A stretch of 64,000 nucleotides of DNA from Modicisalibacter tunisiensis (lineage in GTDB: Bacteria; Pseudomonadota; Gammaproteobacteria; Pseudomonadales; Halomonadaceae), in the NCBI RefSeq assembly GCF_020148005.1, contig NZ_JAGXFD010000001.1, forward strand, positions 3,041,322-3,105,321, read 5' to 3'. A program made the position numbers and the translations under genes. This document shows, one piece after another, positions 23,046-36,005 of this stretch. The notes under the pieces are model-generated. The model was not told where the DNA came from and did no database searches. It worked only from the letters and a program-made list of their open reading frames with translations. Position 1 is the first letter of the stretch. Each line of letters begins with the position of its first letter.

Positions 23046-23097
23046 CGTCTCACCTTACGTCCTGAATACATTGTTTCATCATGGTACACCGCGTCCA

Positions 23098-25242
23098 ATG
23101 AAAGCACAGCCGCTCTCCTCTCACGCAGGCCCATCGCCGGCCGTCATCCATCGCCGCGCCGAGGACCCGCACTGGCACTGGCTCGAACAGCGCGACGACC
23201 CGGCCGTGCGCGCCTTCCTCGACGCCGCCAACCGGGAAAGCGACGCCTGGTTCGCCCCTCTCGAGCCGCTGGTCGAGGCCCTCTACGAAGGCCACCTGGC
23301 GCGACGCGAACTGGCGGTGAGCGGCTTGCGCACGCCGCTGGAGCGCTACACCTACTGGAGCGAAACCGCCGCCGAGGCGGACTATCCAGTCTGGTGGCGT
23401 CACCCCAACGGCGATGCCGAACACCCGGAGTGCCTGCTCGACCTCGAGGCCCGGGCCGGCGACCGGCACTTCCTGGAACTCGGCGACCTGGCGATCTCGC
23501 CCGACGAGACCTGTCTGGCCTGGACCGAGGACACCCGCGGCGACGAGTATTTCGACCTCTTCGTGCACGACTTGCCAGCGGGCAAGCCCCGTCGCGTGCT
23601 CGAGGGCATCGGCCCGGACCTGGTGTGGGCCGAGGACAACAAGCCCCGTCGCGTGCTCGAGGGCATCGGCCCGGACCTGGTGTGGGCCGAGGACAACCGG
23701 ACCCTGCTGTTCACGCGCTACGATGACACCCAGCGCCCGGCCAGCGTCTGGCGGCTGGACCTCCGGGCAGCCGGCGCCGCGCCGATCTGCCTGTTCGAAG
23801 AGGCCGACGTGGAGTTCTGGGTGGGGCTGGGCAAGACCCGCTCGAAGCGCTGGCTGGTGCTCGAGACCGCCTCCAAGGACACCGCCGAGTGCCACCTGAT
23901 CCCCGCCGATGCCCCGGCCACGCTGCCGCGCTGCGTGCGCGCCCGCGAGCCGGGGGTGGAATACGCCGTCGACCATCGCCCGGGCGGCTTCTACGTGCTG
24001 CACAACCGCCAGGCGCCGCATTTCCGCCTGGATGTGGCCGACGAGGCCGACCCCGGGCAGTGGCGCCCCCTGCTCGCCCATCGCGACCACCATACCCTGG
24101 AGGGCGTCGATGCCTTCGACTGGGGGCTGGTAATCACCGAGCGTGACCACGACGCAGCCCAGGTTCATCTGCGCATTCTCGCCCTCGACGGCCTCGCCAC
24201 ACCCCGCGAGGATTACCGACTGGCGCTGCCCGACGCCCCCTGCAGCCTGGCGCTGGGCGACACCCCCGACTTCCACGCCCGGCGGCTGCGCGTCCGCGAG
24301 GAATCCTTCACGCTGCCGGTGCGTTGGGTCGAGCACGACCTCGACCACGGCACGCAGCGTCTGCTCAAGGCCCAGCCCGTGCACGGCGACCTGCAGCCCG
24401 AGCAGCTGGAGTGCCGCCGCCTGTGGGCCACCGGCCACGACGGCGAGCGCATCCCGGTATCGGTGGTAGCACGTGCCGACTGCTGGGCCGAGGGGCCGAT
24501 GCCCACCCTGCTCTACGGCTACGGCGCCTACGGCGAGGTACTCGACCCGTGGTTCTCGATCGCCCGGCTGGAACTGCTCGCGCGGGGCGTGGCCTTCGCC
24601 GTGGCCCACGTGCGCGGCGGCGGGGATCGCGGCGAGCCCTGGTACCTGGCCGGCAAGCTCGAGCACAAGACCAACAGCTTCCGCGACTTCCTCGCCGCCC
24701 GCGAGGCCCTGGTGGAGCACGGGGTCGCCGACGCCGAGCGCATTGCCGCCTACGGCGCCAGCGCCGGCGGCCTGCTGGTCGGCGCCAGCCTCAATCTCGA
24801 CCCCGGGGCCTTCTGCGCGGCGGTGCTCGACGTGCCCTTCGTCGACGTGCTGCGGACCATGGAAAACCCCGACCTGCCGCTGACCACGGCGGAGTACGGC
24901 GAATGGGGCAACCCGGAGGAGCCGGCGGCACGCCGGCGCATCAAGGCCTACTCGCCGCTCGACAACCTCTCGGACCAGGCCTATCCGGCCATCTTCCTGC
25001 AGGGCAGCTGGCACGATTCGCGGGTCCCCTACTGGGAACCCGCCAAGCTCTATGCCCGCCTGGGCGAAATGGCCGCCCGGCGCGACGCCGCCGAGCGACG
25101 CCCGTTACTGCTGCGCACCGACATGACCTCGGGCCACGGCGGTGCCTCGGGGCGCTTCAAGGCCTGGCACGACAATGCCCGCCAGGACGCCTTCCTGCTC
25201 TGGGCACTGGGGCTTGCCGAGACAGAGCGGGTGGAGGAATGA
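23098..25242 (+). CDS. S9 family peptidase (oligopeptidase B-like) with internal duplication
   Basis: The 714-aa serine peptidase has a beta-propeller followed by an alpha/beta-hydrolase domain. The catalytic triad is Ser555 in YGASAGG, Asp640 in WHDSRVPY and His680 in SGHGGASGR. The tail region YGYGAYGE and HVRGGGDRGEPWY match protease II (PtrB). The ATG at 23098 is used rather than a TTG at 23071. Within the propeller, residues 163-181 are repeated exactly at 182-200, encoded by a perfect 57-bp tandem duplication. The repeat keeps the frame but adds 19 residues to a propeller blade, so activity might be altered. It cleaves after basic residues in related enzymes. Confidence 0.9.
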   Translation: MKAQPLSSHAGPSPAVIHRRAEDPHWHWLEQRDDPAVRAFLDAANRESDAWFAPLEPLVEALYEGHLARRELAVSGLRTPLERYTYWSETAAEADYPVWWRHPNGDAEHPECLLDLEARAGDRHFLELGDLAISPDETCLAWTEDTRGDEYFDLFVHDLPAGKPRRVLEGIGPDLVWAEDNKPRRVLEGIGPDLVWAEDNRTLLFTRYDDTQRPASVWRLDLRAAGAAPICLFEEADVEFWVGLGKTRSKRWLVLETASKDTAECHLIPADAPATLPRCVRAREPGVEYAVDHRPGGFYVLHNRQAPHFRLDVADEADPGQWRPLLAHRDHHTLEGVDAFDWGLVITERDHDAAQVHLRILALDGLATPREDYRLALPDAPCSLALGDTPDFHARRLRVREESFTLPVRWVEHDLDHGTQRLLKAQPVHGDLQPEQLECRRLWATGHDGERIPVSVVARADCWAEGPMPTLLYGYGAYGEVLDPWFSIARLELLARGVAFAVAHVRGGGDRGEPWYLAGKLEHKTNSFRDFLAAREALVEHGVADAERIAAYGASAGGLLVGASLNLDPGAFCAAVLDVPFVDVLRTMENPDLPLTTAEYGEWGNPEEPAARRRIKAYSPLDNLSDQAYPAIFLQGSWHDSRVPYWEPAKLYARLGEMAARRDAAERRPLLLRTDMTSGHGGASGRFKAWHDNARQDAFLLWALGLAETERVEE
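23584..23697 (+). repeat. Perfect 57-bp in-frame tandem duplication
   Basis: Bases 23584-23640 and 23641-23697 are identical. Each unit encodes 19 residues starting KPRRVLEGIG and ending WAEDN. Identity at silent positions shows a very recent event or an assembly artefact. Confidence 0.95.
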
Positions 25243-28322: not shown

Positions 28323-30206
28323 TCAGTCGGACGCCGCCTGGGGCGACACGCTCTGCTCGATCAGGCGCGCGCCGAAGGCCTGCTCGAGTTCCTGGATATG
28401 CGGGTCGTCGCGCAGGGCTTCAACCGCCTGGGCATGGCGCTGTCGTGTCTCGCGCTCGCTGCGCGCCTGGGGAGTCTCGAGCTCCGCCGGCAGCTCACCG
28501 GGCTCGATGACCACCCGGCGCTCGATGCCGGCCTCGGCCAGTGCCCGGCGGATACGCTCGAGGTGGACATCGGCCAGCAGCATCGCGTGCCGGGCATCGA
28601 GGCGCAGCTGCAGTCGCTCGCCGTCATCCGCCTCGACCACGCAGTGCGCCGCCAGGTTGCGGGTCAACCCGGTCAGGGCCAGCGTCTCGAAGCGGTCCAG
28701 CCAGCGCGCATGATTCAGTCGCTCCGCGGCCTCGTCCGGCACGTCGTCCGCTTCGAAAGCGGCTGCCGGGGCGACCGGCTCAGAAACGGACGGCGCCGCA
28801 GGTGACGGGGGAGCCTCGTTCGCCGCCACATCCGGCCCCGGTTCCGGTTCCGGCTCCGGTTCCGGCTCCGGTTCCGGTTCCGGTTCCGGTTCCGGTTCCG
28901 GTTCCGGTTCCAGGACAGTCTCGCTCCAGGGCGGTGGCGGCGCCTCGGGCGGCGCCGCCGCCGTGGGCGCTTCCCCGGGGGCTTCATCGGCCACCGGCAT
29001 GTCGGGCGGAGGCGCGGCCGGGGCCGGCGTCCCGGCCGCGCCTCCGCCTTCGGCGTTGCCTGCGCTCCCCGCGGCGACCTCACCGCGCAGCGGCAGCGGC
29101 GTCTGGGGCGGCTTCGGCACGCCCTGCGGGCGGAAGGCCAGCATGCGCAGCAGGGTCATCTCCAGCGCCGTGCGCGGCTCCGGCGCGCTGTCCATGTCGG
29201 CCCGCCCCTGCAGGCCGATCTGGTAGTAGAGCTGGACATCCTCGGCGGTGAAGCGCGCGGCAAGCGCCAGCAGCTCGTCACGGTCACCATGGCCGTTGTC
29301 GAGTGCCTCGGGGACCATCTGGGCGATCGCCAGACGATGGAAGACGCCGGTCAGGTCATCCAGCACCCCGGCGAAGTCGGGCCCCTGCTCGGCCAGCGAC
29401 GCCACCTCGCCGAGCACCCGGGCGGCATCCACCTCGGCCAGTGCCTCGGCCAGCGCCAGCAGATGGCGGTGATCGAGGGTGCCGAGCATCGCCGCCACGT
29501 CGGCCCGGCGCAGCTGGCCCTGGCCAAAGGCGATGGCCTGGTCGGTCAGGCTCATGGCGTCGCGCATCGAGCCCTCGGCGGCCTTGCCGAGCAGCCACAG
29601 GGCCGGCGTCTCGTAGGTCACCGCTTCGGCCTGCAGCACGTGCTCGAGATGCTCGACAATACGCTCGGGCAGCATGTTCTTGAGCGAAAACTGCAGGCAG
29701 CGCGACAGCACGGTTACCGGCAGCTTCTGCGGGTCGGTGGTCGCCAGCAGGAACTTGACGTGGGGCGGCGGCTCCTCGAGCGTCTTGAGCAGCGCATTGA
29801 AGCTGTGGGTCGAGAGCATGTGCACCTCGTCGATGAGGTACACCTTGTAGCGCCCCTGGGTGGGCGCGTACTGCACGTTGTCCAGCAGCTCGCGGGTGTC
29901 CTCGACCTTGGTGCGCGAGGCCGCGTCCACCTCGATCAGGTCGACGAAGCGCCCCTCGTCGATGTCGCGGCAGGTGTTGCAGGTGCCGCACGGCGACGAG
30001 GTCACGCCCTGCTCGCAGTTGAGGCACTTGGCGAGAATCCGCGCCAGGGTGGTCTTGCCGACGCCGCGCGTGCCGGTGAACAGGTAGGCGTGGTGCAGAC
30101 GGCCCTGATCGAGCGCATTGATCAGCGCCCGCTGAACGTGCTCCTGCCCGACCAGTTCATGGAAGGTGCGCGGCCGCCACTTGCGGGCCAGTACCTGATA
30201 GCTCAT
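28323..30206 (-). CDS. dnaX: DNA polymerase III subunits gamma/tau DnaX
   Basis: This 627-aa clamp-loader ATPase has Walker A GTRGVGKTT (45-53), a zinc module (CLNCEQGVTSSPCGTCNTC), Walker B LIDEVHML and sensor 1 LLATTDPQKLP. The C-terminal tau region follows a Pro/Ala-rich linker. Residues about 433-459 form a Glu-Pro dipeptide array encoded by a hexamer DNA repeat. I see no A-AAA-AAG slippery site, so production of a gamma form by E. coli-style frameshifting is not supported by the sequence. Confidence 0.95.
   Translation of the reverse strand: MSYQVLARKWRPRTFHELVGQEHVQRALINALDQGRLHHAYLFTGTRGVGKTTLARILAKCLNCEQGVTSSPCGTCNTCRDIDEGRFVDLIEVDAASRTKVEDTRELLDNVQYAPTQGRYKVYLIDEVHMLSTHSFNALLKTLEEPPPHVKFLLATTDPQKLPVTVLSRCLQFSLKNMLPERIVEHLEHVLQAEAVTYETPALWLLGKAAEGSMRDAMSLTDQAIAFGQGQLRRADVAAMLGTLDHRHLLALAEALAEVDAARVLGEVASLAEQGPDFAGVLDDLTGVFHRLAIAQMVPEALDNGHGDRDELLALAARFTAEDVQLYYQIGLQGRADMDSAPEPRTALEMTLLRMLAFRPQGVPKPPQTPLPLRGEVAAGSAGNAEGGGAAGTPAPAAPPPDMPVADEAPGEAPTAAAPPEAPPPPWSETVLEPEPEPEPEPEPEPEPEPEPEPEPGPDVAANEAPPSPAAPSVSEPVAPAAAFEADDVPDEAAERLNHARWLDRFETLALTGLTRNLAAHCVVEADDGERLQLRLDARHAMLLADVHLERIRRALAEAGIERRVVIEPGELPAELETPQARSERETRQRHAQAVEALRDDPHIQELEQAFGARLIEQSVSPQAASD
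28831..28912 (-). repeat. Hexanucleotide microsatellite encoding (Glu-Pro)n in dnaX
   Basis: About 13 imperfect copies of a 6-bp unit (GGTTCC with GGCTCC variants on the plus strand) lie inside dnaX and encode alternating Glu and Pro. A 6-bp unit keeps the reading frame when copy number changes, so slippage would lengthen or shorten the linker between ATPase and tau domains. Confidence 0.93.
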
Positions 30207-30343
30207 GCAGCGCGGAAGTCCTTGCGGCTGGAAACCGGGTCGACCCAGGGCGACCCGTTGAGAATGCGTGACATGGCTTCATTCTAGCGATTCGCGACAA
30301 GGGCGGAAAGCCGCCCGACATGCCCTGTCACCCCGCCGGAGTA

Positions 30344-30610
30344 TCAGCCGCCCTGACGCTGCCGATCGAGCCAGCCGCCGCACTGGGTGCCGACCCCCGA
30401 CCAGTCGTCACCCAGCCGGCACACGAACAGCACGTCGTGACTGCCGATCAGCTGCATCAGCGTGCGTCGCAGCACGGTGGCATCCTGGTCGGTACGGATC
30501 AGGCACTGGCCGTCCATGGCCCAGCAGTGATCATGGGCTTCCAGATGGTCGTAGAATGCCCGGTACTCGCGGGCCTGATAAAGATCGTAGCTGATGGAAA
30601 ATATGCCCAT
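30344..30610 (-). CDS. Small SinR/Cas2-like ferredoxin-fold protein
   Basis: The translation from 30610 is 88 aa and opens MGIFSISYDLYQAREYRAF. The beta-strand ISYDL, a helix, a central strand (WAMDGQCLIRTD), a helix and DVLFVCRLGDDWSG followed by a GWL end match a small group annotated as SinR-like or VapD/Cas2-like proteins, where the Asp after the first strand matches the Cas2 catalytic position. A longer start at 30652 is possible but adds residues with no family pattern. No toxin-antitoxin partner or cas gene is adjacent. Function is unknown; RNase activity is only an analogy. Confidence 0.65.
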   Translation of the reverse strand: MGIFSISYDLYQAREYRAFYDHLEAHDHCWAMDGQCLIRTDQDATVLRRTLMQLIGSHDVLFVCRLGDDWSGVGTQCGGWLDRQRQGG

Positions 30611-30780
30611 TGGGTCAACCTGCGTACAGAAATGGGAAATTTCATGACGCAATTTTTACGAAGCTTTGTCAGCGTCGTGGGCACGATAGCATTCGAGGGG
30701 GCGGGGTCAATGTCTGCGACGGAGATGCCGAGCACGGGGCCGCGAGGAACGGGCAGGATAACGCGGAGGGCAGAACGGGA

Positions 30781-30890
30781 GGCGGCCCCGCCAGCCGCAT
30801 CCCGGCACACGCATCCACCACTACCGTTGCTCCCTTCCGGGCCTGGCGGGGTTTGCGGCTTCGCGTTGCGGGAGGACCGACAGGGCCACC
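30781..30890 (-). ncRNA. ffs: 4.5S RNA, bacterial SRP RNA
   Basis: The minus strand starts GGTGGCCCTGTCGGTCCTCC and contains the core GGCCCGGAAGGGAGCA, then GCGTGTGCCGGGATGCGGC, ending GGGCCGCC. The tetraloop GGAA with the asymmetric loop AGCA is the Ffh-binding site. The ends pair (GGTGGCCC with GGGCCGCC), giving a hairpin of about 110 nt, close to the 114 nt of E. coli. It is essential for co-translational membrane targeting. Confidence 0.97.
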
Positions 30891-30898
30891 ACAATGGG

Positions 30899-30957
30899 AT
30901 CGGCGTTGATGCGCCGATGCATTCGAGGCTAACTCGTTGAATGCGAAATTGTTTCGC
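30899..30957 (-). other. Three stem-loops in the leader upstream of 4.5S RNA
   Basis: Perfect inverted repeats are ATCGGCG-CATCAA-CGCCGAT on the minus strand (30899-30918) and GCGAAA-CAA-TTTCGC (30943-30957). Between them GCATTC and GAATGC with an inner CGAG/CTCG form a third. They lie between a promoter-like sequence and the mature ffs 5' end, so they may direct precursor processing. Confidence 0.6.
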
Positions 30958-30981
30958 CACGCTTGCCTCGAGCGCCGCAGC

Positions 30982-31010
30982 ACTATAACAGTGCGGACCC
31001 GGCCCCGCAA
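30982..31010 (-). promoter_or_regulatory. Predicted sigma-70 promoter for ffs
   Basis: On the minus strand TTGCGG (-35), a 17-bp spacer, and TATAGT (-10, at 30982-30987) fit a sigma-70 promoter. The start would be about 85 nt before the mature 4.5S RNA, implying a processed leader. Confidence 0.5.
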
Positions 31011-31110
31011 GCCCGGAAGGGGCCATCCATCGACACCGGGGTACACGGCAAATTTCGTCTAGGCTGAGTAGAAGTCACGAACGCGACTCACTGGTCAAGG
31101 AGAAAGCACC

Positions 31111-32334
31111 ATGAACAAGAACCCCGACAAGGGCTACGTTGCGCTGCTCGGCTGGAGCCTCAACGCTGTCGAGGCGGCCGAGAACTTCGACCGACGTTAC
31201 GTGGTGGTCGCGCCGGACTGGGCCGAGGACTACTGCAAGCAGCACGACATCCCCTATGTGCCGTGGAACTTCGAGCGTCTCAACGACCGCTCCATGGAGA
31301 TCGCCGAGACCCTCAAGGAGATGGGCGTCAACGTGGCGATTCCGCTGTTCGAGGAAACCGTGGAATGGGCCGGCGCCATCAACGCGGTGCTGCTCGACAA
31401 CCCACGGCTCTACGGTCAGGCCCTGCTGCTGCGCGACAAGGCGCTGATGAAGCGGCGCGCCCAGCTCGGCGGCATCCGCGTGGGCATCTTCGAGGAAGCC
31501 CACGACAAGGACGATGTCATCCGCTTTCTCAAGCGCGTCAACCAGACCCTGCTCAAGCTCGACGGGGACCCCAACGACCCCATTCACCTCAAGGCCTTCG
31601 ACAAGGCCGGCTGCCTGGGTCACCGGGTGATCCGCACCCCCGACGAGATCGATACCATCCCCGAGGAGGAGTTCCCGGTACTGATGGAATCGCACCTCGA
31701 TGGCTGGGAGTTCGCCGTCGAGGCCTGGATTCACAACGGCAAGATCGCCTTCCTCAATATCTCGGAGTACGTGACCCTGGGCTACTCGGTCTTCGTTCCC
31801 GCCTCGCCGGAACTCGAGAAGTACCGCCCGCAGATCACCGCCCAGATCGAGAAGCTGATCAAGGCCTTCGACATCGATTTCGGGCTGATCCACCCCGAGT
31901 ACTTCGTCACCAGCGACGGCGAGATGTACTTCGGCGAGGTGGCCTACCGTCCGCCCGGCTTCAAGGTCTTCGAGCTGCTCGAGCGCGCCTACGGCTTCAA
32001 TGCCTACCAGGCGACCATCCTGGTCTTCGATCCCAAGACCACCGACGATGAGGTCAAGGCCTTCTTCCCGAAGGAAGTCGTCGACGCCAAGGGCTTTGCC
32101 GGCTGCTTCGGCGTCTATCCGCGCCGCCGCGTGGTCAGCCGCCTGGAGATTCCCGAGGAAACCGAGGACCACCCCTACTTCGAATCCCACGAACTGACCG
32201 CCCCCCTGGAAGAAACCGTGACCAAGCGCACGGCCTTCGGCACCCACTGGGGGCTGATCTACTTCTTCGGTGACGATCCCCACACCCTGCGCGATCTGCT
32301 CAAGCATCAGGAAGAGCTCGACTTCTATGTATAA
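31111..32334 (+). CDS. ATP-grasp domain ligase of unknown substrate
   Basis: The 407-aa protein has the ATP-grasp architecture: an N-terminal preATP-grasp region (about 1-105), a central region with RDKALMKRRAQLGGI (108-122), EFAVEAWIHNGKI (200-212), and the metal-binding segment MYFGEVAYRPPG (272-283) in which E275 and R280 match the ExNxR-type signature. AAGGAGAAAG precedes the start. It is followed 32 nt later by a gene of unknown function with a GTG start, so the two form an operon. Substrates cannot be read from sequence; ligation of a carboxylate to an amine or thiol is the family reaction. Confidence 0.8.
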   Translation: MNKNPDKGYVALLGWSLNAVEAAENFDRRYVVVAPDWAEDYCKQHDIPYVPWNFERLNDRSMEIAETLKEMGVNVAIPLFEETVEWAGAINAVLLDNPRLYGQALLLRDKALMKRRAQLGGIRVGIFEEAHDKDDVIRFLKRVNQTLLKLDGDPNDPIHLKAFDKAGCLGHRVIRTPDEIDTIPEEEFPVLMESHLDGWEFAVEAWIHNGKIAFLNISEYVTLGYSVFVPASPELEKYRPQITAQIEKLIKAFDIDFGLIHPEYFVTSDGEMYFGEVAYRPPGFKVFELLERAYGFNAYQATILVFDPKTTDDEVKAFFPKEVVDAKGFAGCFGVYPRRRVVSRLEIPEETEDHPYFESHELTAPLEETVTKRTAFGTHWGLIYFFGDDPHTLRDLLKHQEELDFYV

Positions 32335-32366
32335 TCGCGGCACATCTTCGGGGACAAGGAGTCCGC

Positions 32367-34391
32367 GTGACGACTCATAATGGTGAACGAACCACGGACG
32401 CCGGCAGGCTGGACGGCCTGCTGGCCAAGCTGGACGAGGCGACCGCGATACTCGCCGATGCACGGGACTTCGCCAAGCCGGGCAAGGCCAGGCGAGTCTA
32501 CGACACCGCACGGCGCGTGATGCTGCTCGACGGCGGCTGTGCGGCCATCGAGGCGCGGGCGCGAGCCCTCGAGGAAGCGGGGGCCTTCAACGGGTCCGAC
32601 TGGGCCCACCCGCAGATCCTGATCCCGTCGCTGACGCCGCATTCGCTCGGCAGCGGCGACGCCGACACCGTGGTGCTCGAGGCGCTCAGCGAACTGCGCC
32701 TGCTGGCGGTCGCGCGCGGCGCCTACGAGCATCCGCTGATCTCCGCCGAGCAGGCGCATCACTACCTGACCCAGGTGCTGGCGATCAACCTCGAACTGCT
32801 GTTCACGGCACCCAGCGAGGCACAACGCGAGACCCAGGGGCGGCTGGCGCTGATGACCCGCCAACTGTTCAGCCACCTGGCCGAGAGCATCGGCTACGAG
32901 CACGTCATCGACCAGCTGATCGACGAGATCTGGCGCATCCTCCAGCAGCGCCCCATTCAGGTCGATCCCGTCAAGCGCATGGTGACCCAGATCGCCATCT
33001 GCCGGGCCAACCCCGAGATCGATCTCGGCGCCAGCGGTCAGGGCGCCGACCGCCTGGTCAGCAGCCTGTTCGGCCCCACTCAGGCCTGCCGCGAGGACCC
33101 GGGACTCGCGGTCTATGCCGAGCGCCTGCAGTCGATGGACGCCGGCGCCCTGCAGTACGAGGCCACCGGTTTCGCCCGGGCGATGCACGACACGGGGCTG
33201 GTGTCGCCCTACCACCCGGTGCTGCTGCGCCACCTGCTCGATCACGGCGACCACCTGCTCGCCGAGGCGCTGGGCCTGTCGTCGACCGGCCGCGACTGCC
33301 TGCTGTGCTACCGGCAGCTGGTCCAGGCGCTGATCGAGGAAGGCGTGCAGCCCGAGACCCCGCAGGCGGTCTACGGCCTCGCCCTGACGCTGGAGCGCGG
33401 CATCCTCTACCAGCCGCCGGTGGCCCCGGCGCTGTGGCGCCAGATCGGCCTGCCGCTGACCCCCTGGTCGCAGGAGCGGCTGCGCCTCGCCTACGGCGAC
33501 GCGGCGACGCCCCGGGCACGCCTGATCGAGGGGGTGCTGTGCATGCTGGGGCTGCCGCTGGGCGTCGGCCAGGGCAACAACCCCACCTGCCAGTCGGCGC
33601 GCGCACTGTCGATGTGGGCCTACAACGACCCCGACTACCTGCTGCAGATGGTCGCCTGGGCGGCCCGCGACGACGAGATCATCATGCACTTCGAGGGCCA
33701 GCCGATCTCGTCGATGGCCAGCCTTTCCGGCGTGGCCACCACCCTGCCCATGGACCTCGACCCGGTGTCGCTGCTGGTGGTGCCGCATCTCGACCGCATC
33801 TACGCCGAGATGGGCCGGCGCTGCATCGGCCGCGAGGGCGATCCGCACCGCTGGGTCAACCCGGAATTCCACGGCTGGTGGGCCGGCCGCGGCTTTCGCA
33901 TCAACGTCGATGTCGAGACCGGTCAGCTCGAGGCGCTCGAGGACTTCCTGCGCCACTTCTACGCCAGCTACCACCCCTACTACAACGGCAACCAGCCGCT
34001 GATCCACCCGCAACCGGCGGGCATCGCGGTGACCGACAGCGCGGCGCGCTTCATCGGCTGGCATGCCATCACCCTGCTGCGCGTCAACCTCGACCCGCAG
34101 GACGTGATGCGCGCCTACTTCTTCAACCCCAACAACGACAGCGGCCAGGACTGGGGCGACGGCATCAAGGTCAGTACCGCCGGCAACGGCGAGCGCTTCG
34201 GCGAGGCCTCGCTGCCCTTCGAGCAGTTCGCCTCGCGCCTCTACATCTTCCACTACGACCCGCTGGAGCGCGGCGAGCTGGCCGACATCACCCAGGAGGA
34301 ACTCGACCGCGTGATCGGCCATATCCATCGCAGCTGGGGCGCCGACCGGCTTCCCGCCAGCGGGCTCCAGGCGCACGCCGGCTCCTCCTGA
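32367..34391 (+). CDS. Uncharacterised protein with papain-like Cys/His/Asn signatures
   Basis: The 674-aa protein matches no family I recognise. Three segments in the C-terminal half resemble the papain-type order: GQGNNPTCQSARALSMWA around Cys408, GWHAITLL with His566, and AYFFNPNNDSGQDWG with Asn587-Asn590. The pattern is Gln-Gly...Cys followed by a helix, then His-hydrophobic-strand, then Asn with Trp-Gly. The N-terminal 350 residues are mostly alpha-helical and rich in Leu and Ala. The GTG start at 32367 has ACAAGGAG before it. It lacks a signal peptide and is predicted cytoplasmic. It likely acts with the ATP-grasp protein. Confidence 0.75.
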   Translation: MTTHNGERTTDAGRLDGLLAKLDEATAILADARDFAKPGKARRVYDTARRVMLLDGGCAAIEARARALEEAGAFNGSDWAHPQILIPSLTPHSLGSGDADTVVLEALSELRLLAVARGAYEHPLISAEQAHHYLTQVLAINLELLFTAPSEAQRETQGRLALMTRQLFSHLAESIGYEHVIDQLIDEIWRILQQRPIQVDPVKRMVTQIAICRANPEIDLGASGQGADRLVSSLFGPTQACREDPGLAVYAERLQSMDAGALQYEATGFARAMHDTGLVSPYHPVLLRHLLDHGDHLLAEALGLSSTGRDCLLCYRQLVQALIEEGVQPETPQAVYGLALTLERGILYQPPVAPALWRQIGLPLTPWSQERLRLAYGDAATPRARLIEGVLCMLGLPLGVGQGNNPTCQSARALSMWAYNDPDYLLQMVAWAARDDEIIMHFEGQPISSMASLSGVATTLPMDLDPVSLLVVPHLDRIYAEMGRRCIGREGDPHRWVNPEFHGWWAGRGFRINVDVETGQLEALEDFLRHFYASYHPYYNGNQPLIHPQPAGIAVTDSAARFIGWHAITLLRVNLDPQDVMRAYFFNPNNDSGQDWGDGIKVSTAGNGERFGEASLPFEQFASRLYIFHYDPLERGELADITQEELDRVIGHIHRSWGADRLPASGLQAHAGSS

Positions 34392-34436
34392 CCCCACCCT
34401 GCCCTCCACGGGCTTTCGCAAGAGCGCCACAACGCA

Positions 34437-34467
34437 AGATCCCCACCGGCATGGCCGGCGGGGATCT
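34437..34467. terminator. Bidirectional terminator between the ATP-grasp operon and tctA
   Basis: AGATCCCC and GGGGATCT flank an inner CCGGC/GCCGG stem, giving a long, strong hairpin between convergent genes, with CTT following on the plus strand. Confidence 0.7.
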
Positions 34468-34490
34468 CTTGACCCGGTCTGGCCGGGCGC

Positions 34491-36005
34491 TCAGTCCGGC
34501 TGCGCGCCCGCCTTCATCCGGCGCCGCAGGATCGGCCCGACGATCACCGGCAGCACCAGCCCGGCGATGGCGATCGCCCACAGGGTGATCGACAGCGGGC
34601 TGCTCCAAAGGACCATCCAGTCGCCGTCGGAGATCTGCATCGCGTGGCGCAGGTTCTTCTCCATCTCCGGACCCAGCAGCATGCCCAGGATCACCGGTAC
34701 CAGCGGGATCTCCAGCTTGCGCAGGAAATAGCCGGCCACGCCGAACGCCACCATGAAGTACAAATCCACGGGCGAGTGGCTGATCGAGTAGATGCCCACG
34801 AAGGCGACCATGGTCACCATCGGCAGCAGGTACATCGGCGGCACCGAGAGCAGCTTGACGAACACCCCGACCAGCGGAATGTTGAGCACCAGCAGCAGGA
34901 AGTTGCCGATCAGCAGTGCCGCGATCACCCCCCACACCACGTCGGCGTTCTGGGTGAACATCAGCGGCCCGGGGGTGATGTTGAAGGAGATCAGCATCGC
35001 CAGCAGCACCGCGGTGGTGCCACTGCCCGGCACGCCCAGCGTCAGCATGGGCACCAGGGCCCCGCTCGAGGCGCCGTTGTTGCCGGCCTCCGGGGCGGCC
35101 ACACCGCGCGAGTCGCCCTCGCCGAAACGGTTCTTGCTGCCCAGGATCTTCTTCTCCAGCGTATAGCTGATGAAGCTGCCCAGCGAGGCGCCGGCCCCCG
35201 GCAGGACCCCGGAGATGAAGCCGATCACGCCGCCGCGAAAGGAAGTCGGCAGGATCTCGCGAATATCCTTCCACTTCAGCGAGAGCTTGTTGACCCGGAT
35301 CATCTCGCGGCCGGCCCCGGCCTTCTCCTCGATGAACACCAGCAGTTCGGAGACCGCAAACAGGCCGACGATGGCAATGATGAAGTCGACCCCCTCGTAG
35401 AGTTCCAGGGTACCGAAGGTGAAGCGCTGCACGCCGGTCGACAGGTCGATGCCCACGGTGGCGATCATCAGCCCCAGCGCCGCGGCGAGAATGGTCTTGA
35501 CCGGGTTCTTGCCGGTGATGCCGCCCAGGGTGGCGAAGGCCAGCACGAACAGCGCGAAGTATTCGGCCGCGCCGAAGGTCAGCGCGAACCTGGCGAGCAG
35601 CGGCGCCAGCAGGATCAGGCCCACGGTGGCGATCAGGCTGCCGATGAACGAGGCCACCGCGGAGATCGCCAGCGCTTCGGCGGCGCGCCCCTGCCGGGCC
35701 ATCGGGTAACCGTCCAGACAGGTCATCATCGCCGGCTCGTCACCGGGGATGTTGAGCAGGATCGACGAGATGCGCCCGCCGTACATGGCGCCGGCGTAGA
35801 CCGCGGTGAGCATGATCAGCGCGGTTTCCGGGCGCAGCCCCAGGGTGAACGCCAGCGGGATCAGGATCGCCACACCGTTGGCCGGGCCGAGACCGGGCAG
35901 CGCACCGATCAGGGTGCCCAGGAAGGCGCCCATCAGCGCGAACATCAGATTGTGCGGCGCCAGCGCGACGCCGAAGCCGTCGATCAGATAATTGAGGGTA
36001 TCCAT
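34491..36005 (-). CDS. tctA: Tripartite tricarboxylate transporter large permease TctA
   Basis: The 504-aa protein has about 10-12 membrane segments. Conserved TctA segments are GTLIGALPGLGPANGVAIL, YAGAMYGGRISSILLNIPGD and, near residue 300, APEAGNNGASSGALVPML. It is the large subunit of a Na+- or H+-driven carboxylate importer served by a soluble binding protein. The start overlaps the tctB stop by one base (TGATG). Confidence 0.93.
   Translation of the reverse strand: MDTLNYLIDGFGVALAPHNLMFALMGAFLGTLIGALPGLGPANGVAILIPLAFTLGLRPETALIMLTAVYAGAMYGGRISSILLNIPGDEPAMMTCLDGYPMARQGRAAEALAISAVASFIGSLIATVGLILLAPLLARFALTFGAAEYFALFVLAFATLGGITGKNPVKTILAAALGLMIATVGIDLSTGVQRFTFGTLELYEGVDFIIAIVGLFAVSELLVFIEEKAGAGREMIRVNKLSLKWKDIREILPTSFRGGVIGFISGVLPGAGASLGSFISYTLEKKILGSKNRFGEGDSRGVAAPEAGNNGASSGALVPMLTLGVPGSGTTAVLLAMLISFNITPGPLMFTQNADVVWGVIAALLIGNFLLLVLNIPLVGVFVKLLSVPPMYLLPMVTMVAFVGIYSISHSPVDLYFMVAFGVAGYFLRKLEIPLVPVILGMLLGPEMEKNLRHAMQISDGDWMVLWSSPLSITLWAIAIAGLVLPVIVGPILRRRMKAGAQPD

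Follow-up and report, generated by a model that had tools for sequence, protein, structure and literature searches.

We describe here two adjacent genes, A and B, that lie in a 64,000-nt stretch of the Modicisalibacter tunisiensis genome (assembly GCF_020148005.1, contig NZ_JAGXFD010000001.1, positions 3,041,322 to 3,105,321 of the forward strand), which is referred to as the window and numbered from its first letter. An initial annotation, made from the letters of this DNA, had reported an ATP-grasp protein of 407 amino acids (aa) followed 32 nt later by a 674-aa protein of a family that it did not recognise, and the open reading frames, their lengths and their strand were confirmed. The two genes are co-directional, with a gap of 32 nt between the end of A (32334) and the start of B (32367), and the features of the locus are as follows.

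31097..31102, + strand: Shine-Dalgarno-like AAGGAG ahead of gene A, read from the sequence
31111..32334, + strand: gene A, 407-aa ATP-grasp protein, predicted carboxylate-amine (amide-forming) ligase, from the open reading frame, Pfam and a PDB profile search
31591..31593, + strand: Lys161 codon of A, invariant in 22/22 and aligned with a Lys of 4dim
31897..31938, + strand: Glu263 ... Glu276 of A, predicted Mg-ATP ligands, invariant in 22/22 and aligned with Glu residues of 3vot
32356..32361, + strand: Shine-Dalgarno-like AAGGAG ahead of gene B, read from the sequence
32367..34391, + strand: gene B, 674-aa protein, start codon GTG
33570..33590, + strand: Gln402 ... Cys408 of B, predicted oxyanion Gln and nucleophile, invariant in 108/108 and 38/38
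34062..34064, + strand: His566 of B, predicted catalytic His, invariant in 108/108 and 38/38, within a beta strand of the model
34125..34157, + strand: Asn587-Pro-Asn589 ... Trp596-Gly597 of B, predicted third catalytic residue and Trp-Gly motif, from conservation
30786-30882, - strand: bacterial small signal recognition particle (SRP) RNA gene (Rfam RF00169, 71.2 bits), in the gap upstream of A

The SRP RNA gene was the sole match in an Rfam scan of positions 30200-35000. It lies upstream of A on the opposite strand, dnaX is also upstream of A, and a tctA-type gene lies downstream of B on the opposite strand (dnaX and the tctA-type gene were named by eye). Given these flanking genes, the unit in the window is A and B alone.

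Judged from its sequence, A is a member of the ATP-grasp superfamily, as the initial annotation had held, with both the profile similarity and the conserved ATP-binding Lys and acidic ligands of that superfamily. It matched the Pfam model ATP-grasp_4 (PF13535) with an E-value of 1.2e-5 and 25.4 bits, just below the 27-bit cut-off, and a profile built from 22 A proteins retrieved from the PDB the L-amino acid ligase BL00235 (3vot, E 1.9e-4), the ATP-grasp protein 4dim (E 4.2e-4) and the L-amino acid ligase 4wd3 (E 5.9e-4). These are its closest solved relatives and have a Glu...Glu-x-x-x-Arg region in common with it, though the likeness to 3vot and 4wd3 is weak (E 2e-4 and 6e-4) and the alignments extend across only ~120 residues. 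Lys161 of A aligned with a Lys of 4dim, and Glu263, Glu276 and Arg280 with their equivalents in 3vot; all four are invariant in 22/22 A proteins, and by comparison with ATP-grasp enzymes Lys161 presumably contacts ATP while Glu263 and Glu276 presumably act as Mg-ATP ligands. The score of A against the NCBIfam PRK07206 / L-amino acid ligase model was 30.1 bits, far from the cut-off of 302. The A protein of the window is 76-90% identical to those at 21 other loci, three of which are from genomes outside its class.

In B, the residues Q402, C408, H566, N587, P588, N589 and G597 are unchanged in all 108 aligned sequences, a number in which the copy from the window is counted and some genomes appear more than once, and in all 38 sequences of a divergent set with identities down to 38%. 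W596 is kept in 108/108 of the aligned and 37/38 of the divergent sequences, and N590 in 105/108 and 29/38, respectively. The initial annotation had picked out C408, H566, N587, N589 and N590, together with a Gln ahead of the Cys, and all of these are present in B where it had placed them. Its expectation that C408, H566 and the segment N587-N590 would be conserved held for C408, H566, N587, P588 and N589; N590 varies and is therefore not the conserved Asn of B. Q402 precedes C408 by exactly six residues, which is the Gln-Cys spacing of papain, and the conserved Gln, Cys, His and Asn follow one another in the order seen in papain-like cysteine enzymes (clan CA). Because these residues are unchanged throughout both sets, the papain order in B is, on the alignments, not due to chance.

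No sequence family could be assigned to B, and in this the initial annotation was borne out. There was no match to Pfam (24,736 models) or NCBIfam at E-values up to 1, the best match among PDB sequences was a ribosomal protein (E 0.04), and profiles of 14 and 38 B sequences found nothing in the PDB (best E 0.29 and 0.2). When the 38 divergent members were scanned singly against Pfam at E-values up to 10, 11 scattered weak families were obtained (best E 0.011), none of them papain-like by name. A search of viral contigs for relatives of B returned none; the sole viral motif match (L172) was a phage-like contig without a B gene and was discarded.

B appears to be divided into a helical N-terminal half (residues ~1-370) and a predicted papain-like C-terminal half (~372-674). 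A model of the C-terminal half (303 residues, 58 alignment rows) had a predicted template modelling score (pTM) of 0.68 and a mean predicted local distance difference test score (pLDDT) of 65. In this model a helix begins right after Cys408, within a stretch of pLDDT under 50, His566 falls in a strand (191-204 in model numbering) of the beta sheet that follows, and a strand ends just ahead of Asn587. When the model was compared to the PDB with Foldseek, ranks 1-23 were all members of the papain superfamily, including fibroinase, calpains, cathepsins, falcipain, bromelain and staphopains, and by our reading the superfamily accounts for 37 of the best 50 of 221 matches. In a viral library, rows labelled papain or cathepsin were at ranks 2, 4 and 7 (E 0.027 to 0.63), with other proteins between them. 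The argument for a papain fold is carried by the agreement of many related chains and not by any single Foldseek score.

Several results weigh against this assignment. None of the PDB matches is significant alone (best E 0.13, best probability 0.75), and query-normalised TM-scores among the best 50 of the 221 matches do not exceed 0.23. The full-length model of B is poor in its catalytic half and gave insignificant Foldseek matches only (best E 0.23), many of them to helical-repeat proteins, and Cys408 lies within a low-confidence stretch of both models. An hhalign comparison of the C-terminal profile with papain scored 15.2 and gave no sequence support, since papain was outscored by no fewer than 15 of the 217 unrelated proteins used as controls, the best of which reached 29.9. 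Hence, while the invariant residue order and the Foldseek ranks bear out the papain-like arrangement seen in the initial annotation, E-values of 0.13 or above, the modest model confidence and the hhalign result do not, and a papain fold for the C-terminal half is suggested by the modelling. B looks like a new papain-like family that neither Pfam nor NCBIfam contains.

A and B are inherited together across distant, mostly salt-loving bacteria. For the counts that follow, an A orthologue is one of at least 76% identity, broken copies excepted. In a sample of the class, B was found in 8/274 genomes and A orthologues in the same eight, 17 further genomes having only weak matches (23-36% identity) to other ATP-grasp proteins. 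Among relatives, both genes were in the same 30/58 genomes, with weak A matches in two more, and in a set of chosen genomes A was present in 28/28 that were B-positive and 0/24 that were B-negative. Across the samples there are 65 distinct B-positive genomes, all with an A orthologue. In a sample of the phylum, B was found in 11/398 genomes, and three genomes with B lie outside the class. By record title, the best 80 of at least 586 loci come from Halomonadaceae, Marinobacter, Guyparkeria, Haliea, Marinimicrobium and others.

The genes are also physically linked, and neither the poor conservation nor the missing linkage that the initial annotation had named as outcomes adverse to its proposal was encountered. 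Of the best 80 of at least 586 loci, 74 have a co-directional A upstream of B at a distance of 600 nt or less, the six exceptions being L063, L065, L100, L102, L105 and L107 (loci are identified by L numbers). Part of an A-like gene is found further along the contig of L065. Short A-like remnants stand right before an intact B in L102 (7852-7971), L105 (7655-7968) and L107 (7851-7970), with 55-67% identity over 40 to ~105 residues, as if A had decayed in place. In distant genomes the order of the two neighbours may be convergent, divergent or interrupted, and they are adjacent or one gene apart despite a turned order in L157, L163, L167, L176, L178, L184, L185 and L187; proximity has therefore been kept through rearrangement. 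Matches in two pieces, as if from a frameshift or an assembly error, were seen for both B and A at G003:C41:33497-36756 and for A at G022:C10:753415-754598. Two observations fit a strict partnership less well. Many lone copies of B, mostly paralogues of 52-58% identity, occur as extras without A beside them in some genomes, and the correlation between A and B distances across 20 matched loci is only moderate (r 0.54). Over those loci the mean p-distance is 0.20 for A and 0.48 for B, which is thus ~2.4 times as diverged.

The neighbours of A and B were surveyed at 43 hand-chosen loci, several from the same genus or genome (e.g. L157, L158, L159), using script-called genes. From the near list 148/154 genes were scanned, the six left out including the PotI and PotH neighbours of L229, and the list does not contain the EctC of L161; the far list was a random 154/228 genes from the same loci, 148 of them scanned. 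Among genes no more than two positions away from A or B, the commonest Pfam family was Hist_deacetyl, the histone deacetylase (HDAC) fold, at 7/148 near and 0/148 far genes (one-sided Fisher test, 0.007). L089 had entered the sample after its HDAC-fold gene had been seen, which counts against this figure; without it the counts are 6 and 0 (one-sided, 0.015). Eight deacylases near A or B that were compared make up three subfamilies, with identities of 60-89% inside a subfamily and 31-48% across subfamilies, and one neighbour resembles, by eye, acetylpolyamine amidohydrolases.

Some HDAC-fold gene is encoded in 33/34 A/B genomes, so adjacency alone is informative. An HDAC-fold gene adjoins the pair in 4/34 genomes (G505, G237, G316 and G792; P ~6e-6), or in 3/33 (P 2e-4) without G792, which was chosen with its HDAC-fold gene already known, and ectoine synthase (EctC) does so in 2/34 (P 0.001). 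The assumptions behind these P values are 3600 genes, four flanking positions, genes placed at random and genomes independent of each other, and when the 34-genome set was assembled the four HDAC and two EctC cases were already known. In L228, B stands directly behind a PotF-PotG-PotH-PotI-like run, 3 nt after PotI if its earliest start is used, and in L229 it is 192 nt behind the same run; PotF and PotI of L229 were named from their best NCBIfam matches, which score below cut-off, whereas PotG and PotH were named by eye. In three genomes of one genus (L188-L190), B is directly before an Mrp-type Na+/H+ antiporter run (by eye) and A is elsewhere in the genome.

EctC is encoded in 34/34 A/B genomes, which represent 32 genera, and in 0/14 control genomes. 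EctC-type genes are reported in 4493/56,624 bacterial genomes, with some groups over-represented (PMC5924519). In L161 the three genes form a run A-B-EctC in which A and B overlap by 8 nt and 1 nt separates them from the first possible EctC start. In L164 the run is B-HDAC-A-EctC, and its EctC is 88% identical to an EctC that adjoins an ectB-like gene (named by eye); no ectAB was found elsewhere in the 184,345 bases searched of this ~2.3 Mb genome. In three genera a further ectC-like gene, of 120-136 aa, was noted next to an amidase-like one (463-496 aa, by eye), at the following positions.

L232:6929-8841: second ectC-like and amidase-like gene, in the genome of the window itself
L239:7520-9388: second ectC-like and amidase-like gene
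L240:4009-5906: second ectC-like and amidase-like gene

Solitary ectC-type genes are known (PMC5924519). At L238:7428-9113 and L243:6639-8318 there are proteins of ~560 aa with an EctC-like start, apparently EctC fused to another domain. Away from the pair, an S9 peptidase-like reading frame (by eye) at 23071-25242 of the window (+ strand) carries a 19-residue stretch twice in tandem, possibly a recent small duplication.

From these contexts A and B may together be one unit of small-amine amide metabolism in ectoine producers, and this is the reading we prefer, albeit tentatively. The papain fold, the chemistry of both enzymes, the direction of the cycle and the metabolite are what we infer, as follows. 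A would use Mg-ATP to convert a carboxylate into an activated acyl phosphate and then join it to an amine. Cys408 of B, assisted by His566 and Asn587/Asn589 and with Gln402 in the oxyanion hole, would attack an amide or acyl donor, and the fate of the thioester intermediate would be either hydrolysis or transfer to a second amine. The initial annotation had supposed that the pair ligates and then trims or transfers a peptide or amino-acid conjugate; the contexts, with HDAC-fold neighbours, the putrescine-transporter-like run and ectoine synthase, suggest an amine substrate more than a peptide as such. The amine would most likely be a polyamine or a diamino acid, e.g. putrescine or 2,4-diaminobutyrate, the latter being the ectoine precursor, and HDAC-fold deacylases would act on the same class of amine. 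These ectoine-producing, mostly salt-adapted bacteria would use the conjugate for osmoadaptation or as a store of nitrogen or polyamine. Some of the context tells against an amine-based pathway: HDAC adjacency is a minority trait (7/43 sampled loci), NCBIfam names none of the three HDAC-fold neighbours tested, the putrescine-transporter link (L228 and L229) comes from one genus only, the co-occurrence with EctC, counted in A/B genomes and 14 controls, is confounded by salt habitat, which may explain part of it, and in the window no HDAC-fold or EctC gene stands beside A and B, both being elsewhere in its own genome. A bolder version, in which A, B, the HDAC-fold deacylase and EctC form one pathway that makes or recycles an N-acyl diamine or N-acyl diaminobutyrate to be cyclised by EctC or stored, would explain both the presence of EctC in 34/34 A/B genomes and the ectC runs of L161 and L164, but we consider it very doubtful.

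Other explanations of the pair start from the same data. If A ligated two amino acids and B capped or trimmed the dipeptide, the product would be a peptide-type compatible solute that builds up during salt stress, as happens elsewhere with N-acetylglutaminylglutamine amide. Two of the three best PDB relatives of A are indeed L-amino acid ligases, ectoine synthase is encoded in each of the 34 A/B genomes examined for it, and MscS-type channels (L072, L098, L101, L169) and BCCT transporters (L096, L169) occur near A or B. However, this osmotic theme, which was picked out by eye and also took in an Mrp antiporter, was set aside for MscS and BCCT because neither MscS (4 near and 2 far genes) nor BCCT (2 near and 1 far) is enriched, and the commonest neighbour family is instead an amidohydrolase of the HDAC fold. 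The N-acetylglutaminylglutamine amide system clusters genes for an AsnO-like amidotransferase and an acetyltransferase, and neither of these was encountered in the 25 commonest of 177 neighbour families or recognised by eye near A and B in the window. A peptide solute seems unlikely.

We are similarly disinclined to believe that the target is a protein, with A adding an amino acid or amine to a side chain or terminus in the manner of RimK, B acting as the protease or deconjugase that takes off or processes the addition and the HDAC-fold gene encoding a lysine deacylase. ZUFSP, a deconjugase of the papain superfamily, is found at Foldseek ranks 29 and 30, and the slow evolution of A (p-distance 0.20, compared to 0.48 for B) is as expected with a conserved macromolecular partner, but no substrate-protein gene recurs in the neighbourhoods read by eye or among the 25 most frequent families, and the nearby transporters and EctC point to small molecules. 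Finally, B might not be papain-like at all, its residue order being a coincidence within another conserved fold and the pair carrying out unrelated chemistry. No profile or sequence connects B to any papain-like family, and pLDDT is low around Cys408 in both models. Set against this are the invariant Q-x5-C, H, N and G597 in papain order, the papain-superfamily chains at PDB ranks 1-23 and the three papain- or cathepsin-labelled rows of the viral library search, which make such a coincidence decidedly improbable.

The logic of small-amine amide metabolism proposed here for A and B resembles, by analogy, that of the glutathionylspermidine synthetase/amidase (GspSA) split into two genes. GspSA, for which the amine is a polyamine, likewise combines an ATP-dependent amide ligase with a papain-fold amidase, but it is one fused protein, whereas A and B are separate and B has a large helical N-terminal half. 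Its amidase is placed with the papain-like CHAP enzymes in PMC10318531. In butirosin biosynthesis, the ATP-grasp ligase BtrJ is likewise paired with a papain-like acyltransferase, BtrH, though these are encoded in an antibiotic cluster with a carrier protein, and the 25 commonest of the 177 neighbour families include no carrier protein. BtrH is assigned to PF14399 (PMC10318531), to which B has no match, and Pfam matches to the synthetase and CHAP domains of GspSA were found in neither A nor B. Membership of either system is not supported on sequence grounds, because neither A nor B matches their domain families. Calpain carries Asn-Pro and Trp-Gly, as B does. The Cluster I papain-like enzymes, i.e. 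papain, cathepsins, calpains and staphopain (PMC10318531), share the Gln, Cys, His, Asn order with B but have no detectable sequence similarity to it. A papain-like family whose gene neighbourhoods may include ATP-grasp ligases has also been described (PMC2922099), and pairs of an ATP-grasp ligase and a papain-fold enzyme are thus of a known kind (PMC10318531, PMC2922099).

The B family and its pairing with A in ectoine producers appear to be undescribed in Pfam, NCBIfam, the PDB and the titles and abstract openings of the papers listed by searches of an open-access library. Nothing on the pair was found in those titles and abstract openings, though a review of amidoligase systems cited in PMC10318531 may mention it. 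B is an apparent papain-like family outside Pfam and NCBIfam that goes with a single, strongly conserved ligase in each of the 65 distinct B-positive genomes tested. It is present in Halomonas species, and Halomonas is used for ectoine production. If A, B, the deacylase and EctC did form one pathway, it would yield an undescribed ectoine-type compatible solute or be a dedicated ectoine salvage loop, and if the link to amines and ectoine is true, a conserved branch of osmolyte or polyamine metabolism would have gone unnoticed in model halophiles.

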